64,000 nt of DNA from Apostichopus japonicus (GCF_037975245.1 NC_092563.1:10505001-10569000); one strand, 5' to 3'. Shown: positions 2,676-40,260, counted from the first letter of the stretch. Notes: generated from the letters alone by a model not told the origin. Numbers and translations: made by a program.

Positions 2676-2704
2676 GAATGAACGAAAATGCTGAAACTAA
2701 GTAA
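2676..2704 (+). promoter_or_regulatory. Splice acceptor and overlapping uORF at the PDF start
   Basis: The pyrimidine-rich run ending TTTGTACAG (to 2675) looks like an acceptor, so the PDF mRNA probably has a non-coding 5' exon upstream. The first ATG after it (2678) opens an 8-codon ORF ending TAA at 2704, out of frame and overlapping the true PDF ATG at 2688. Leaky scanning would be needed to reach PDF. Confidence 0.4.
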
Positions 2705-4433
2705 ATCCGTAGTCCTTGTGACCAGCAGAGGATTTGCTAGAAGGAAGATTATTGAGGAAACAATTTACAGAGAGCTGTGGAGAAACCTCAGAAATAGGTA
2801 CTGGAAAGCAGAATTTAAGATACCACCGTATGATCACACTTGTCAGGTAGGAGACCCTGTGCTACGAGGTCATGCTAGCCGTGTCCAGGTGCAGAGCATC
2901 AAGGGAAAAGACATTCAAAATTTAGTAAAGACGATGGTCAAGGTTATGAGAAAAACTGGTGGGGTTGGGCTAGCTGCTCCTCAGATCGGTGTTGGGAAAC
3001 AGGTTATTATCGCCGAGTTTACGAAAAAGCACGCTAAAGTATGGACGGAAGAAAAATTTGCAGCAAGGGAAGCTTTATTGTTTCCTTTGAAGGTGTTTAT
3101 CAATCCTGAATTGAAGGTGTTGGACTCAAGGCAGATTACCCTCCCCGAGGGCTGCCTTTCTATCAAGGGATTCTATGCCAATGTTCCAAGAGCTTACAAA
3201 GTGGAAATATCAGGTAGGTCCTAATACTTAAATCATCTTTGTACAATTAAATGATGAGTTTAGGCAGAATTTAGACTTGACAATTCATAATCCAAGAAAG
3301 TAATGTTTCTATAATAACTATTCTGGCTTTCAAGATAATTTATACACCTATTATGCAAAGTTCCTGGAATACTCCTTCAATGCTAAAGTGATGATGACAT
3401 AAGGCCCTCAGATCAGTAAACACTCTGCATACTATCATGCGCCCCCCCCCGCCCCCCCCCCCAAAAAATTATATAAATTATTTGTTGATATTCATGCTAA
3501 AAGTAAATGATATAGTGCCTTTTATATTTACAGCATATATTTACAGACTAATATGCCAAATAAAAAAATAAAAATGTGTTTGGTTTTTATTCAATTATTT
3601 ATGAGCTCTTCTGTCTCCAGGTCCTGATGTCGCAGAGGGTACTACTGTATATTTCTCATGTATTATCCTTCGTGAAGCTAATTTGTGAGACCACAATTAA
3701 GTTCTACAAATTGTATGAAATTAATGCCATTTATAACTATGATTATCAGTTGGTGTTATTGTTGCAAGTCAATTGATAAGACCATTATACATAATTCTAG
3801 GCCTTTCATGATACATGTAGAGTTTTGGCTAGATATGGGATGTATGTGTATACATAATGAAAGTATCTCAGAGTTCTCATGACTGGACCAATTTACCATT
3901 GTGATTCTGTGTTCTTCATTAGCATGCACAAATCTCAAGAAACAACAAGTTTGGAGGGTATGAAGACTCTCTTCTGTTGCTACAGTAGGAAATAGGGTTT
4001 AGTAACACATTCAAGGAAACTGACAAAGCACATCAGATATATACTGACTTTCAGAGCACAAATTTTGATCATTAATCATCTATTGACATAATATTCCTAG
4101 TGAATCGATATTCCATGCTTTGGACCTTCAATTTTGAGCCCATTTGGATAGTTTTTTAGTTAACTATGAAGTTAGCAAAATCTCTCTTTAGACTACCTTG
4201 TAGCCTTAACAAGAATAAATTGTATACTATTGCTCCAGGTCAGCTGCAGGCATCTTCTTTTTTTGTATGCAGGATACAATGAGCATGCTGAGCATGTGAC
4301 ATGGACAGCACATGGGTACTCTGCTCGGATTCTCCAGCATGAAGTGGATCATCTTCGTGGTAATTTGTTTATTGACATCATGGATACCAAGACATTCGGT
4401 GATGAACTCTGGCCCAGATGGAATTTGAGGTGA
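2688..4433 (+). CDS. PDF: Peptide deformylase, mitochondrial (two exons)
   Basis: Removes the formyl group from the initiator methionine of organelle-made proteins, in the mitochondrial matrix. Exons are 2688-3213 and 4273-4433, joined in phase 1 (donor CAG|GTAGGT, acceptor TATGCAG|GA), giving 228 residues against about 243 in vertebrates. All three family motifs are present: GVGLAAPQIG (92-101), EGCLS (154-158) and HEVDH (198-202). They supply metal ligands C156, H198 and H202 and the catalytic E199. The first 45 residues are basic and hydrophobic with few acids early on, as in a mitochondrial targeting peptide. The start is the first in-frame ATG after a likely acceptor ending at 2675; an in-frame TGA at 2679 rules out an earlier start on the same exon. 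A short out-of-frame ATG ORF (2678-2704) overlaps the start. Neighbouring genes are convergent. The function is secure from the motifs; upstream non-coding exons were not located. Confidence 0.93.
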
Positions 4434-31429: not shown

Positions 31430-33746
31430 TACACTGTTAAAAATAATGGGCAAAATTTACCCAACTTTTTATCCAACGTTGGGCATGTATTCAGCAACCT
31501 CAAAAGTTGGGCAAAAATTGACCAACCCAAATAGGTATAATAAATTCTCAACAGTTGGGAGGGGAATTACCCAACTGTTCAGGTTAGCCATTTCCCCAAC
31601 TGTTGGGTGGGTCATTCATTTTGTTGGGCAAATCATTTAACCAACGTATGGGTTAAGGCACCAGTAATGTATCCATCTGTTGGGCAGTTCATTTAGCCAC
31701 CTGTTGGGTGTATACTAAATTTGTCCCAATTGTTGGACAATTCATGGATTTTGTTGGGCATTTGCAACAACCAAATGTTGGGTTAATCCTGAACCACTTC
31801 CAACTGTTGGGGGTTTCTTAGATCGTGTTGGGCAATAATGGAAAAGAACTGTTGGAATTCTAAAAAATCTAAGACATCACATCCTTTGAAATAAAGAAAG
31901 ATACTGTATTTTGTAATACATGGAACACCTTTATTCACTGACCTTGAAGAAGACATATATAACTCTCATGGGTGAATAAACTTATTGTTGAATGAACTGA
32001 ACTTGAACAAGACATATAACTATAATGGTTGAAGAAACGTATTGTTGACTGAACAGTATAATTTGATATAAGAAGTCTTAAATTCAGGTATTCTTGAAAC
32101 AAGGGTATGAACTGAAATAAATTAATTAATGAAGCCATATGTTTCATTTATGTAAGGTTCACGCACATTCCTTGGAAACTCATTTTGATCTGAAAACAAC
32201 CTTCCCTAAAGTGACATTAACATTTGTGGCCTCAATTTTCTTAAGAATCCCACAGGATAAATTTTATGGGAAAAAATGCCAATGGCTTTGTGATTCCTTG
32301 CCATGAGAACTAAAATCCCCCTTGTACATCATACACCAACTTTGCATTAATATTTTAACCTTTTAACTTAAGTTTAACCCCAAAAGTTTCAGTAATGTGG
32401 ATCAAAAGCACATATACACCCTCCATTTCTGGAGTACCCATGTCTGAAAGTGTACTGGTTAAAATTAATATTTAACCAATGCAAGGGTGGATCAAAATGG
32501 GCTGCAAAGCTCCATACTATTATTAAACAGGAAGCAAAACAGGTTGTCAGCAATGTTCTTGTACCTAAATGCTTACTGCCTTCAGCCCACTACTGCCCTT
32601 GCTGTCTTTTCTTGTTTAGGAAATGGAAATTTGCTGTGGTCAGACTCACTCCCTCTCTAAATCTATGTTAGGACCTATGTTTTCTGACCATAGCTAATCA
32701 CTTATTACCTTTTGAGTCTTTTAAACTCATCATTAATTAATTAATAATTATGTGGAACCATGTACAAAGTTGAATTTACAAAATTTACAGCAATTTCTTT
32801 TGCACTTGAACAATTGTCTTCCACAATCTAATGATATTGGCAAAACATTTTCCACAAAATGATTACTACATAACTAGCCATCTTTGCAAAGTAGCCGGGT
32901 CATGTACGTGCAGTAAGCGGGTCATTTGACCCGGGTCCCGGCTACTAACGAGAACCCTGCAGAAGCCTATAGTTCCTGAACTTTGAAAACCCAAAATAAA
33001 TTCTGTCACCACTGCGAAACATTATTGCTTTCCCATTGCGAATTATATCGCCCTCAACATTTGTCACGTAAGTCACGCAGAGAAATGAAGAATTTAAACT
33101 TTTTGGAGGAAATCAATAAATCCTGTGAAGCATTGAGAGAAATCTGCTAAGGGGCCTATTATATCTGAAAAGGATACATTGAGGAATAACTTCAAGGTAA
33201 AATTTAATTGATATGCATTTTAGTATGTCAGTTCATTGTACACTAGCTCATCACACAGTAGTTGCTGGAAGAATTTTAATTGGTGGTGCAAATCAAGAGT
33301 AAGTTTCAAAATAACATTTGCAGTCACATTGTGCATGAAGCTCTGCCTTTCATGGGTGCCCTTAATAATGTTGTCATTTTGATTTAAGTGAATACAATTA
33401 CAGAGTAAGTTCAAATCTAGATGTTCAGTTGTACATAAAAACTCCTATGGACTAGTTCTGCGAAATATCTTAACTTAAGTGCTACAGTAGCTAAATAGTT
33501 CCTTAATTAGCCGTAAAATCATGGCAACTGCCCATTTCAGCACGTTCATTACACAAATGTAACCTACATATACTCGTATCATCCACTTTTTTTACCCAAT
33601 TCCATGATAAATGCATGCTTCAAAAATGAATTTCTAGACACCTTGTAATTTGTGTCGAAGTTTGAAACAGCGGTATTAGGGCTTTGGATATGTATCCCAT
33701 TATGATACCTCGAGGAAAAAAGGCTCCGAGCCAGGTGATAAACTGT

Positions 33747-35775
33747 TTAAGGACTGGCAGCATTCTTCATGAAAGCTCTGAAAGACCGGATGGAGGAGGA
33801 AAGATTCTTCATTCCTGATTGTTTATATATGCAACTTTCAATGAAATCCCAAACATTTCGGCAGTGGTGCTGGTACTGCAAGTTGAATATGTAGTGTGCT
33901 TTATAGCAGATGTCGACTCCTTCAGAGAGTGTCTGCACGCTCACTGCGTGCCTCTCCAAGGTAACAAACACTTGTGATGGTGTCAGCTTGAAGTCTGAGT
34001 AAAACCCAAGGATGAAAGGCTGAGATCTTCATTCACTGCTTATTCCCTGTAAGTATGAAGGCAAATGGGTGTGCTCCTGTGAAACCAACAGAAGCAATGA
34101 AAAGTAGCTTTTAGTATTCCATGTTCAAATTGATTTATTTCTGGTGTGTTCTATATTACAGCCAAAACCATTTACTTTATGCATATCACAAATATGTTAT
34201 TGAACTTGTAGTATAAATTAAAAATGGAAACGCTCCCTTTTGATATGTCTAACCAGTAGGATGATACCAGCACACCACTGATTCATATGTAGAATTAGTT
34301 TGGAGGGACTTAACTGACTTAAGATCATCTAAGTGAACAAGAAGATTGTCGTAGGGCATTAGTTGGCACCTCCTTCCCATTCGAAATATAAATGTAGATC
34401 GCAATGGGTACATGCTAGTTTTGAACTTTGGAATTTTGCACAATCCAATGTCCAACAATAGCAATACCACACCTAATACTACTGATACTAACACTACTAC
34501 TACCACCAACGACAACGACAAGAACAAGAACAACAAAAAAAGAAGAAGAACAACAATAGCAATAATGATGAAAATACAGCTTAAAGGGTTTTACAGATCA
34601 GTGGAGCCTGTCACAAATCTCCAACAATCCTAAAGAGTAAGTTGCTGCAGTCTTTGTAATCCACACAGGGTTTTGCTCAGGTTCCTCACAAGTTCACATT
34701 TTCACCTGAGTGGAGTGAGGCCATCAAGATAGAGTGCCTTGCCTAAGGACACAATGTAGCCGGGATTTGAACCACTGATTCTTGGATTACGAGATTCAAA
34801 CCCTAGCTGATTACAAGCAAAGTCAGCAGCTGATATGAATAATGCATTTAGACATACCCTTTTTAATTCAATAAATGATGAAGCATGATCTGTTGCCGCT
34901 GATCGTCCTCCAGTTTTGGCCTAGCTCCTGGTCCCAAAAATAAGTGGTAACATGAGCAATGACAGGTTGTCCTTCTCCTCTGCAAGTGAAAACCAAAATG
35001 CCAAATTTAGCAAAGCATAAAAACCTCAAACTCAATGGTTGTTGTAATATAATAGTCTATCGGGAAGTAAATACCAAATTCAATAGTCATCAGGTTAGAA
35101 ACAATATGGTAGGTAAGTAGCTGGGAGACTCCCCTCCCATTCAAAGAAAGATAGTGATCCTGTATTCAATATGGGAAATATACAGAACATACTTAACATC
35201 ATCAACCTGGTTGTTCCTGAGGTAATATGGTTAAAGGTCATTGTTTGACCTCTGCTGACTTAATTTATTGTCATTTGACCTAGTTTCTATATTATCTACA
35301 ATAAACACTAAGAAATTACCGTAATATGCTGAAGCTACTGTAGATTGCCACTGTATCATAATAAAAACGATACACATTGTAAACATAAGCCCAAGATTTC
35401 AACCACGGATCACCATAGGCTTATTAAAAGGATATAAAAGGTTATTGGAAGTTCGAACTCCACACTTAACCTTAACTAGCCTAGGAGTAGGACTCGCTTA
35501 AGTAATCTAGGCTAGACATATAGTACGTACGTCGGTATACAGGTATCCTTTTGTCACTGTGATAGGCTACACTACTGTATAGGCTCTATACGCTAACGTT
35601 AGTATTACTGTACTACTGGGCCTAGCATAGGAGTACAAAATGTTGATGAAAATTGTGTGAAAGAATCGTCCCAGTTTATTCCGATTACTTCAATCCCTTC
35701 ACTGAAATGATTACCTTTCATAGACTGAATTATGTCGGGAACAAACAACCCCCAGCTCTTGAGTAGATCTTCCAT
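33747..35775 (-). pseudogene. SAMD3-like gene, decayed, inside the 4.7-kb element
   Basis: A first coding exon (35775-35715) starts MEDLLKSWGLFVPDIIQSMK and ends with a phase-1 GTAATC donor; this is the opening of a SAM domain. A second exon (from 34979 down to about 34883, acceptor CTTGCAG) continues with LSLLMLPLIF and then, after a one-base shift, GPGARPKLEDDQ, matching the end of a SAM domain. The C-terminal exon (about 34022-33747) reads QPFILGF, TPSQVFVTLERHA, EGVDICYKAHYIFNLQYQ, CRNVWDFIE and IRSFRAFM, the tail I know from the multicopy SAMD3-like proteins of fish and invertebrates. An in-frame TGA precedes QPF unless a later acceptor is used. The frameshift suggests a pseudogene. Family recognition is from memory of pattern, and middle exons were not resolved. 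Confidence 0.5.
34668..34812 (-). mobile_element. tRNA-derived SINE
   Basis: The minus strand reads AGTGGTTCAAATCCCGGCTA (B box) followed by CATTGTGTCCTTAGGCAAGG, the same tail as the copy at 10159-10290. Confidence 0.65.
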
Positions 35776-36126
35776 TTCGACTTTTGAGGCTGTCAACTCG
35801 ACGGAATATGTAACCCTTCGTCGTGCACGCGCGCTCAAGCACACTTTGCATTCAAAGTTGCCCAACGTTGGTAAACGTCGCCAAGGTAAAGCCGAATGCT
35901 TGCCCAGCGTATGGTATAAAGAACCGAAATTTCGCCCAACATACGATTACGATGACAGAAAAGACCAACATGTGGACAAATATGAGCAAGGAGTTTACCA
36001 ACTCGATGGGTAAACAAACTAATCTGCGATTCGATCATTTTTATATATAAATTGGGCACTATTTGACCAACACAGTTGAAAGGGTACTTGCCCAACAATT
36101 TTTTTACCCAGTGTTTTAACAGTGTA

Positions 36127-37306
36127 GGTTTTTTCCTTCTTATTGTCGTTATTTATTGTTGGGGGGTGGAATATTACCCCACCCCCCCCCCCAATCAAAT
36201 AATCCCCTCCCATTTACACCATTGTTCATACCAAAACAAATGGGAGAAATGTTAGTTCAGATAATTTAGGTATACATTATGAAGGTACGTCTCAGCGTTT
36301 CATTGGTTGATTACTGCAACGTGTTTAGTTATTTAAACTTATGATATTACTAATTTTTCATGTCCTACCAGTTTTAGAATATTTAAAAGCATTCTTGTAA
36401 GCTTTCTTTTTGGGGGAAATGTGAGGAATTAAATTTTTTAAGTCTCCTTACAATAGTGTCTTAGACTATAGACTTTTCTTCTGGCATATGCAATGTGGAC
36501 CTTTCGCTAGGAATACAAATGTATTATGTTAAGATCTTTAATGTCCTCATTCGATAGTATATACTATAATAATGGCGAGGTTTTTGGCGTGAAATATGTT
36601 GCTAACAATGACACACTGATCCGGGCAGTTTTCTTTGAATGATTTATATACTACTATGTTTGGATAGGAGAGATAAGAGTCAGTCTGTATACGAACTACC
36701 TCTCGTATTGTATTTGAAACAGTTAAATTGATGGATATGAGCTGATACAGTTGCATGCCTGTTTACTTGATCTTATCTACTCTGCACACTACATGTAAAC
36801 ATAGACATATCACGTTTGTTTATATAGCAGATAACATATGGATACATTAACTTTAAACTATAAACCTCCGTTATCACGCGGGTGCGAAGTTCTGTTAGCT
36901 CACAAGTTATTACGGGACAACTTTGTCTATAACTTAATTCACCATTACCTTATCAACCAGCGTGTGACCAAGAGTTGACTTCACCTACTTGGGAACATTT
37001 ATTCACAGGTACGAAAAAAATCTTGCAGTAATTCAGAATAATTAATTTATTTGTAACAAGCAGGTTATTACGTATTTCAGTGGGTTTTTATCCTTATTGC
37101 CTCCCGTAACTTCACGCCCATGCTTTTTATTTGAGTGTTTTTAAACAAAAATACGTTATATGTATCGGTCTGCACATATTTTGTCTTCAGAATCAATTCT
37201 TCGGAGAGCGCTTTGTACGTACTTCCTTATATAGGTGTAGCATCAGTATATTTCGTTCTTCAATCTTTTTCCTTCACTTTTTAATCTCTATAGTTTGAAT
37301 ACCATC
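36127..37306. other. Upstream region of the GH1 gene
   Basis: C run at about 36178-36192, otherwise AT-rich. A pyrimidine-rich stretch ending CTATAG (to 37293) looks like an acceptor just before the GH1 ATG, implying a non-coding first exon further upstream. It and the promoter were not located. Confidence 0.4.
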
Positions 37307-40260
37307 ATGGCTAAAGATATTGGCAAGGAGAAATTCGTTTACGAACAGTTTCAAGACCCCGAAAGAGACGCTTTTATCAGTGGAACCTTTCCTTCGGACT
37401 TTGCATGGGGATGCGCAACAGCTGCATATCAGATCGAGGGTGGTCATGACGCGGATGGTAAAGGTGAGGGTGCTTGGGACGCTTTCTGTCGTATTCCTGA
37501 CAAGATATTAAATGGACACACCGGCGACGTTGCTTGTGACAGCTACCACAAGATAGATGATGATGTGAAGTTGTTGAAGGATCTTGGTGTCAGTCATTAT
37601 CGATTGTCCTTATCTTGGCCGAGGATTCTTCCGTCGGGGTTCGTTACCGACGTAAACCAAGCTGGAGTAAGCTATTACCATAAACTGCTGGATGCGTTAG
37701 CAGCAGCGAACATCCAACCCATGGTCACCATACATCATTTTGATCTCCCAAAAGCTCTCGATGATTTAGGAGGGTGGCATAATGAGCTAATGGCGGTGTA
37801 CTTCAATCAGTATGCAGATTTCTGCTTCAAAGAATTTGGAAGTAAGGTAAAGCTTTGGATCACAATCAACGAACCTAAAGTGTTCGCCGTATATGGATAT
37901 GATTTCGGCAAATTTCCTCCTGGATGGACCCACGTTGGGTCGGGTACTTATCGTGCAGTCAGCATTATGCTGAAAGGCCACGCAATGGCATATCGCACAT
38001 ATGACATGAAGTACCGTTCAACCCAGGAAGGCCAGGTGTCCATTGCGTTTAATAGTTTCTGGTCGCAGCCAAAGACAGATTCTGACGCAGACGAGGCAGC
38101 TGCTGAGAGGTTTCGGCAGTTTGAGTTAGGAGGTCTCGCCCAACCTATCTTCGTTGACGGAGATACACCAAAGTCTGTAAGGGAAACTATTGCCAAGAAA
38201 AGTAGTCAGGCGGGGCTTCTGTGTTCTCGCTTACCACCTTTTACTGAGGAAGAACGAGAGCTGTTGAAAAACTCAGCCGACTTCTTTGCCCTCAACTATT
38301 ACAGCACTCGTTTAGTGAGTAATCGAGAGGTTGATCCACAGTCCCTCCTCTTACCAGATATTTATGCGGACTTTGACGCTGAGGAGTCCTTCGATCCGAG
38401 TTTTCCACGCGCATGTTCAGAGTGGTTGTACTCTGCGCCATGGGGCTTCCGAAAGCTACTGAATTGGATAAAGAAGAATTATGGAAATGTCAAGATCTAC
38501 ATTACAGAGAATGGGTTTTCTGACGAAGATGGTCCTATGAACTTGGAAGATGAAGATAGGATTAAATACTATAAAGCTCACATTAACGAGATGCTTAAAG
38601 GTAAAATGGCTCTACATGCCTTCCACCTAAAGTCTATTCTAAATTCATAATTTGTCAAAAATAGTTGAAAACTATCACCACATAATATCAAGTAATGAAG
38701 TAGTTCATACAGTTGACTATGCACGTCCGCCATTTTGAACAGCTGGAAAGATGTGAACAGATATCATAACACAATACCAGTAATGTACATCAGCTCGAAA
38801 TGCTAAGCGTCGAAAAAAGACCTTATGGAAAGAGCATATCTCAGATGGTGTGGAATAATGATGATTGAAGGTTATTTGCAGTATTTTAGATGTTCTTTGG
38901 TTAAATGTCAATATAAGTGCGGGCGATCAGACGGAAGGGTTGGGTTTCAATATGCTATGATATGGAAATCTACAGGTACAATGATAGGCCGAGCCACTAT
39001 CATCACGATCATCCACTGTCATCAATCATTATGGTATAAGCTAGTGGAGCTCTTCCTTATATATGTTCTATGTGGCTCAGAAAGTGACGAGTTTAGTGTG
39101 TAAAGCAATGGAACGATTAAAGAACTAACAGGGTTATCGAGCATGTCTGTCTTTATACATGACAAAAACGTTTTTACCCATGCACGTGACCATATTGATA
39201 TCTCATCCCCAGTCTTCGAGACTTCCGAAACCTTCGTGCACATGTAAGCTGGCAGTCAGCTCATCTCATCGGTACATGATATGTGCCGAGGATTTATTAA
39301 TGTTTATTTGCAAAAATGGTATCATAATTGCTGCCCACCTCACACCCCACGTGGCATTGAACTGATACCTGGTCAGCGCGTTTGTGGTAGTAAGAGTAGA
39401 GGATACCACGATAACATGCCACGCAGACTCCATTTCTGGGGTTAGGTCCAACTTGAATGTGTGTGTATGGATGTTTATCTGTCCCACGAACTCCTAAACA
39501 ATATCAAGTATATGAACTTCAACCTTGGTGGGCGTAGGACTGGGGTATGGGATGTTGAGCCTCGGTGAGTGTTAACTTCGTAGCGTCAATTACATAAATT
39601 CCAAAGCTGCTTTTGCTTCGCTCATTGCGAGATGTCAAAGAATGAAACCTTTCATACACAAGAAACGTAGAACGTCAGTCAAATGTCACATTGTCAATGG
39701 TAGCTAAACGTAAACTTGCCAAATTTGTTGCGAGCGTCTCCTTAGGTGTAAGCAGTTGAGCTTCCATTTGGTGATAACGTCATATCCTGAAAGAGCTCAA
39801 CGGCCCCTGATGCGGTTTGCACATTGATGACACTGACATGTGTCGCAAACTTCAGTTAAGCCATATATACAGTTCATGCATTTTAGCCTTTGGGGAATGG
39901 TGTATGAATTTACCTCCGGAGTGATGACATCATAGTCGTCATATCATGAGCAAATTGTGTGAAGAGTTCCGAAACCTCATGTTTTCCTATTTGTTGTAAT
40001 TGTTGTAAGCACATTGAATGATATATACCTATTATTAATCATCTGTATGTTATTGCCCCATAGCTCGTCTGCTCGATGGTGTCGATGTCAGAGGGTATTT
40101 TGCTTGGTCACTGATGGATAACTTCGAATGGGCTGAAGGATATCGTGAACGGTTTGGTCTCCACCATGTTGACTTCAACGACCCACAAAGGCCAAGAAGA
40201 GCAAAAGCATCTGCGAAGGTGTACGCCAAAATAGTCAAGGACAATGGGTTTCCAGAGTAG
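37307..40260 (+). CDS. GH1 beta-glucosidase, cytosolic type (two exons)
   Basis: A glycoside hydrolase family 1 enzyme, a retaining TIM-barrel beta-glycosidase. Exons are 37307-38600 and 40064-40260, joined in phase 1 (AAAG|GTAAAA, CCATAG|CT), giving 496 residues, the normal single-domain length. Visible motifs are [13 protein letters not shown] (about 33-46), HHFDLP (143-148), WITINEP with acid/base E189, LNYYST, YITENG with nucleophile E401, and [18 protein letters not shown] (441-458) with the glycone-binding W446, E453 and W454. No signal peptide or membrane anchor, so a cytosolic enzyme like vertebrate GBA3 is inferred. The usual Trp after NEP is Lys here. ATG 37307 is chosen for its good context (ATCATGG) right after a likely acceptor. 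The substrate cannot be told from sequence; the last exon is needed for a complete active site. Confidence 0.93.
39064..39125. repeat. 62-bp direct repeat, copy A (GH1 intron)
   Basis: TGTTCTATGTGGCTCAGAAA ... AATGGAACGATTAAAGAAC recurs at 42178-42238 with only a few differences. The two copies bracket the last GH1 exon. Confidence 0.8.

Follow-up and report, generated by a model that had tools for sequence, protein, structure and literature searches.

In the maize transposon En/Spm, the open reading frame (ORF) of the transposase, tnpD, is located in intron 1 of a second gene, tnpA; the TNPA protein binds the subterminal repeats of the element, and transposition needs both proteins (PMC2613891). 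Among the En/Spm families the repeats and the proteins that bind them diverge, while the transposases remain alike (PMC2613891). EnSpm/CACTA is also a member of the larger CMCT group of Kojima, together with Mirage, Chapaev, Transib, Plavaka, ESTA and Lanisha; this group is characterized by the catalytic signature D...D-C(2)C-H(3-4)H-E, by CA..TG ends and by target-site duplications of 2-5 bp (PMC12730594).

We analyzed a stretch of 64,000 nucleotides from Apostichopus japonicus (GCF_037975245.1, NC_092563.1:10505001-10569000), called here the window. Positions 31432-36124 of the window are occupied by one copy of an element, family W, with fragments of a gene of a type that we take to resemble SAMD3 and therefore call SAMD3-like. 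Very likely, family W is a non-autonomous, EnSpm/CACTA-like element of the CMCT group whose autonomous members encode a transposase and a SAMD3-like protein, a candidate analogue of TNPA, with one gene apparently nested in the other. This reading builds on the mobility of the element, its ends, duplications and empty sites, as well as on gene content, gene pairing and exon order. The features of the window copy are the following:

31430..31431, no strand: left-hand TA of the target-site duplication
31432..31442, plus strand: left terminal inverted repeat (TIR) CACTGTTAAAA, exact, 11 bp
31443..31850, no strand: left subterminal array of GTTGGG/CCAAC words in both orientations
32886..32960, no strand: 75-bp unrelated filler, in place of ~340 bp of the other copies, present in the window copy only
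33222..33223, no strand: breakpoint of a deletion that removed 184 bp still present in the other copies
33747..34028, minus strand: final coding exon of the SAMD3-like gene, with the C-terminal block (QPFILG...YKAHYIFNLQYQHHCRNVWDFIESCIY)
34858..34979, minus strand: penultimate SAMD3-like exon, flanked by AG and GT, with an in-frame stop at 34918-34920
35715..35775, minus strand: probable SAM exon 1 (MEDLLKSWGLFVPDIIQSMK), donor G/GTAATC
35850..36113, no strand: right subterminal array of GTTGGG/CCAAC words
36114..36124, minus strand: right TIR TTTTAACAGTG
36125..36126, no strand: right-hand TA of the target-site duplication

The element has perfect 11-bp inverted ends within a TA duplication, the right end being the reverse complement of the left one; the inverted repeat at the element ends (I10) measures 14 nt at 100%. 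The search space was the window's own 671.6-Mb genome. The 13-mer TACACTGTTAAAA, made of the end and TA, was by itself hardly enriched genome-wide (210 matches vs 187 for the reversed control); therefore, the case for an element rests on whole units. The right-end 18-mer CACTGTTAAAACACTGGG had 25 matches compared to 0 for the control, 24 of them in family W and one in a related element, Z. Family W was found to have about 25 copies on many chromosomes, with 92-98% identity, all ending at the TIRs. A preliminary description of the window had proposed a TIR pair with TA at both sides and a search of the assembly for other copies of the unit. The exact ends, the units that stop there and the 18-mer count bear out the former, and the search was successful.

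All the copies read at both ends (21/21) had a 2-bp duplication: TA in 19 copies, CA in one and CG in one. The CA and CG took the place of TA at insertions on C9 (L033/L034) and C22 (L035/L036). TA as the target, as initially described, thus holds for most of the insertions, but not as a strict rule. In an alignment of nine copies, each was about 1% away from the majority sequence and the window copy 1.7% away, a divergence small enough to indicate that family W moved recently.

For the empty-site test, the two flanks of each of 19 family W copies were fused around a single target dinucleotide, and the resulting sequences were searched. Empty sites with a single TA, which the preliminary description had proposed to look for, were observed for four insertions, with uninterrupted relatives 99-100% identical over ~160 bp: the L024 site (C21:13338052), L053 (C20:23240469, C17:16130558), L051 (C9:30731122) and L045. 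The L045 insertion lies in a single unit of an array of tandem repeats near 12.38-12.51 Mb of C3, where at least 35 other units are empty (the array, G000:C3:12381590-12509570, has a unit of ~3.26 kb and at least 35 units, 99% identical over the 160-bp stretch compared). The feature of the window is confirmed as a mobile cut-and-paste element.

The subterminal arrays of GTTGGG words, also reported initially, stand out in counts: GTTGG/CCAAC occurred 16 times in the first 350 bp of the element vs 2.2 expected, and the last 350 bp held 7 such words vs 0.9 expected. The density of these words was 1.5 per kb in the element interior and 1.7 per kb in the remainder of the window.

With respect to coding content, the window copy is a non-autonomous, defective derivative that holds fragments of the SAMD3-like gene and not the whole gene. 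Its last exon matched the same exon of the related families X, Y and Z (E 2.6e-22, 2.4e-18 and 6.9e-28, respectively), and the block of this exon had at least 150 matches in the genome. The penultimate exon showed a weak yet ordered match to family X (E ~7e-4 to 2e-3); most of the sister copies are free of the stop that interrupts it in the window copy. The segment 35715-35775, which by itself is without statistical support, is probably SAM exon 1, judging by where it lies, by its ATG and splice donor and by its similarity to exon 1 of family X. None of the family W copies was matched by a profile of SAM exon 2, and the transposase is absent from the window copy. The mid block of family A had no match in the window element, as expected for a copy without that exon. 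Of the minus-strand exons first read as the start and end of a SAM domain and a C-terminal block, the C-terminal block was verified and the SAM start is probable, while the end of the domain was not found.

The window copy is 4693 bp long vs ~5150 bp in its sisters. We infer that its deletion and its filler, which contains the palindromic AGTAGCCGGG...CCCGGCTACT, are a scar of the type left by interrupted gap repair. Window positions 32965-33601 were considered as exons of a related family and dropped; this segment is probably a nested repeat, devoid of SAMD3-like coding sequence. The same segment (also L021:2218-3138 and L071:655-2028) is ~90% identical to eight other loci (C1:21304699, C20:34396249, C20:19899922, C9:36335984, C4:17481823, C21:15791519, C16:1415032 and C1:16965084); the stretch common to them begins with GGGCCATTCCA(C/T)GT and resembles a separate nested repeat. 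Elsewhere in the window, two ORFs were noted on the plus strand: one of glycosyl hydrolase family 1 (37241-38650, 469 aa), ~1.1 kb from the element, and one for a peptide deformylase (2682-3224).

Among the relatives of family W there are fuller elements. Element A (C1 1536098-1549389, L055+L056) is 13.3 kb long, has the same TIR, and contains a 917-aa transposase ORF as well as a SAMD3-like block. Similarly, B and C carry the transposase and the SAMD3-like gene in one TIR unit; in family B a SAM-like exon is located between the transposase and the mid block, i.e., after the transposase. Family X (C7:10996502; C3:18906686) is ~12 kb long, with both genes in a single unit, ends formed by TA followed by CACTCTAAAAA, and GTTGG/CCAAC arrays. 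A repeat with ~20 or more copies at 98-99% (L074:9315-9901) adjoins the right end of X. In family Y (L075:1103-8278), a derivative of 7.2 kb, the transposase is missing and the SAMD3-like gene was kept; the family has at least 15 copies with 92-97% identity and a TA duplication in 8/8 copies read at both ends, and relatives with a transposase upstream exist. Element Z, 3.9 kb long, shares its ends and words with the window copy; SAM exon 2, the transposase start and the last SAMD3-like exon are retained in it. A search by the exact right end for an autonomous partner of the window family returned only W copies and Z.

Ends were examined in eight families, both ends in A, B, C, X, Y, Z and W and the 5' end in E. 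Two types were observed, CACTGTTAAAA in W, Z, A, B, C and E (5') and CACTCTAAAAA in X and Y. The preliminary idea would have been refuted had other SAMD3-like loci lacked these ends; the loci examined do have them, at both ends in A, B, C, X, Y and Z and at the 5' end in E. Some SAMD3-like C-terminal blocks outside these eight families may be host genes. Seven SAMD3-like C-terminal blocks, each with a stop, were found on one strand ~40-50 kb apart in G000:C9:12289576-12568549; this series is perhaps a larger repeated unit.

The two genes tend to come in pairs. In the A clade, 45/45 of the transposases listed had a same-strand SAMD3-like block 1.3-8.8 kb downstream. In the X clade, a partner block was located downstream in 22/52 cases and, with a second listing, in 28/52 (the six more were counted by hand from coordinates), leaving 24/52 transposases with no partner among the matches listed. 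The chance expectation for co-directional pairs is ~0.2. Conversely, 101/123 C-terminal blocks had no transposase upstream among the matches listed; transposase-less elements explain such unpartnered blocks for W, Y and Z only. Transposases and SAMD3-like blocks diverged in parallel, with respective identities of 52% and 43%, 43% and 32-38%, and 39% and 27%.

In family X, SAM exon 1 (CAAG/GTAAGG) is followed by SAM exon 2 (GAG/GTAAGC), then, 13 bases past this exon, by the transposase ATG, and then by the rest of the SAMD3-like gene. SAM exon 2 immediately preceded the start of the transposase in X, Y and Z and in three further families, with transposase identities to X of 42, 36 and 33% (tblastn E 1.7e-7, 1.9e-7 and 5.6e-9, respectively); it was not found in a family with 28% transposase identity. 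Since SAM exon 2 ends just before the transposase start, an intron of the SAMD3-like gene appears to enclose the transposase, to judge from the exon order and the GT/AG sites. This layout agrees with the exon order and splice donors in X, Y, Z and the three further families. The spliced SAM of Y reached 25.8 bits with Pfam SAM_1 (cut-off 23), and that of X was below the cut-off; an N-terminal SAM domain is thus present in Y, and the window copy has its probable first half only. The two clades differ in that the SAM exons come before the transposase in the X clade and the SAM-like exon after it in family B of the A clade.

At its N-terminus the transposase has C2H2 zinc fingers (profile match to GLI, E 1.2e-6). 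The residues D, D, C2C, H3H and E do not vary among six families (A, B, D, E, G and X). The first D is in [YF]-x-D-x-F-E-x-x-N-P-L-G and the second one, at a spacing of 90-93, in G-D-N-L-G-x-H; C-R-x-C comes 20 residues past the second D, followed by P-K-x-H-x3-H-Y, and the E is in R-[FY]-E-x-K-H. The stretch ahead of H-D-x2-E-G and a D-x-[LM]-H motif recall box A of SmTRC1 (PMC1636069). Domain searches with the transposases returned little else: Pfam gave only zinc-finger-like and chance matches and no transposase domain, NCBIfam gave no match, and a PDB profile search gave essentially zinc fingers, with no match to a catalytic domain. Transposase_21 (PF02992) had no match at E <=10 in four transposases and at E <=1 in a fifth, although a single-sequence profile may miss it. 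As there was no Pfam transposase match, membership in the plant-type CACTA elements with Transposase_21 is not claimed. Among viral contigs, 60 pattern matches were obtained and none was confirmed.

Both end types have the form 5'-CA..TG-3', the duplications (2 bp in family W, TA in Y) are within the 2-5 bp of the CMCT group, and the CMCT signature is present in the transposases of the partner elements, the window copy having none. The likeness to this group rests here on ends, duplications and transposase signature. Transposons of the Transib/RAG type make 5-bp duplications. One of them, ProtoRAG with its RAG1L-RAG2L pair (PMC7481187), is likewise a two-gene animal element with a distantly related catalytic signature, but its partner protein and its ends are different. 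In PMC12730594, EnSpm, Mirage, Chapaev, Plavaka, ESTA and Lanisha have the CA..TG ends and the D...D-C2C-H3H-E signature seen here, and ESTA has the 2-bp (TA) duplication; unlike our elements, the animal and fungal CMCT elements carry no mention of a SAM/SAMD3-like partner in the parts of PMC12730594 and PMC1636069 consulted. With plant En/Spm (PMC2613891) our elements have in common the CACT-type TIR, family-specific subterminal words, two proteins, and large elements with internally deleted derivatives; a transposase ORF in an intron of the second gene would be a further similarity. They differ from plant En/Spm in having duplications of 2 bp instead of 3 bp, no match to Transposase_21, a transposase with N-terminal C2H2 fingers, and a second protein made of SAM and the SAMD3-like block and not of TNPA/TNP1 type. 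SAMD3-like genes annotated as host genes also have an N-terminal SAM, a conserved C-terminal block and many copies (their resemblance to SAMD3 is again presumed), though the genes described here are inside transposons, beside a transposase.

The subterminal words are clade-specific: GTTGG/CCAAC in W, X, Y and Z, and CTGTAA/TTACAG in A, B and C, the latter being absent at the right end of A. Such specificity is expected if an element-encoded protein reads the words. Which protein does so is the point of the main rival on function, in which the SAMD3-like protein is a core component with another role, as a regulator or anti-silencing factor, and the words are bound by the zinc fingers of the transposase. 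We regard this rival as quite possible. The N-terminal C2H2 fingers could read DNA words, and PMC12730594 describes fungal relatives with extra genes thought to counter silencing; on the other hand, the layout matches that of tnpA and tnpD in En/Spm, in which the subterminal repeats are bound by the product of the outer gene (PMC2613891), and the word arrays vary by clade.

A more distant alternative is that the SAMD3-like gene is host cargo acquired by Pack-type capture, with copies spread as passengers. Transposase-less elements that keep SAMD3-like exons are indeed common (W and Y), and SAMD3-like blocks outnumber transposases. We nevertheless find capture improbable, since the same-orientation pairing persists across families with transposases only 33-52% alike, both proteins diverging in parallel, and since the place of the SAM exon before the transposase start is kept in six families, which a recent capture would not yield. 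The preliminary description had offered both cargo and core component; the presence of the genes in one unit, their common direction and the SAM exon order in six families favor the latter. Finally, a mariner/Tc1-type element that encloses part of a host gene by chance would account for TA in 19/21 duplications, but it is hardly credible given the CA and CG duplications, by which TA is merely preferred, the 4-20 kb elements with subterminal arrays, and the CMCT signature, in place of strict TA and a mariner transposase, in elements with the same ends.

If family W is indeed a derivative of two-gene EnSpm/CACTA-like elements, they would move by cut-and-paste into 2-bp, mostly TA, targets, and autonomous members would make two products, a C2H2-finger D...D-C2C-H3H-E transposase and a SAM-domain SAMD3-like protein. 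In the window copy's clade the transposase ORF starts no more than ~60 bases after SAM exon 2, within what would be the next intron; the two proteins would then arise from spliced and unspliced transcripts, like those of tnpA/tnpD in maize En/Spm. By analogy with TNPA, the SAMD3-like protein may bind the palindromic subterminal words, and SAM-SAM contacts may join both ends of the element for the transposase. On this reading, transposition would account for the number of SAMD3-like copies in this genome.

A literature search, conducted outside Repbase reports and most subscription journals, found no link between SAMD3 and transposons. As the fuller relatives carry a transposase beside the SAMD3-like gene, the many SAMD3-like genes of this genome give the impression of a functional component of a transposon rather than of a host family that has expanded; calling them host-like, as was done initially, probably has matters the wrong way round. 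We suggest tentatively, with more doubt than conviction, that SAMD3-like proteins as a class are the TNPA-equivalent of an ancient two-gene group of animal EnSpm-like elements, with the SAM protein bridging the ends. In that case, SAMD3 genes found elsewhere in hosts would descend from transposon genes by domestication, and a nested layout of the tnpA/tnpD kind would be common to plant and animal elements. Animal gene sets list many "SAMD3-like" genes. If these are transposon genes, the annotations and the "gene family expansions" inferred from them would be wrong. The EnSpm-like elements of this genome gain a candidate second protein with a known oligomerization domain, so that the joining of ends by such elements becomes testable, and a possible source for the host SAMD3 is suggested.
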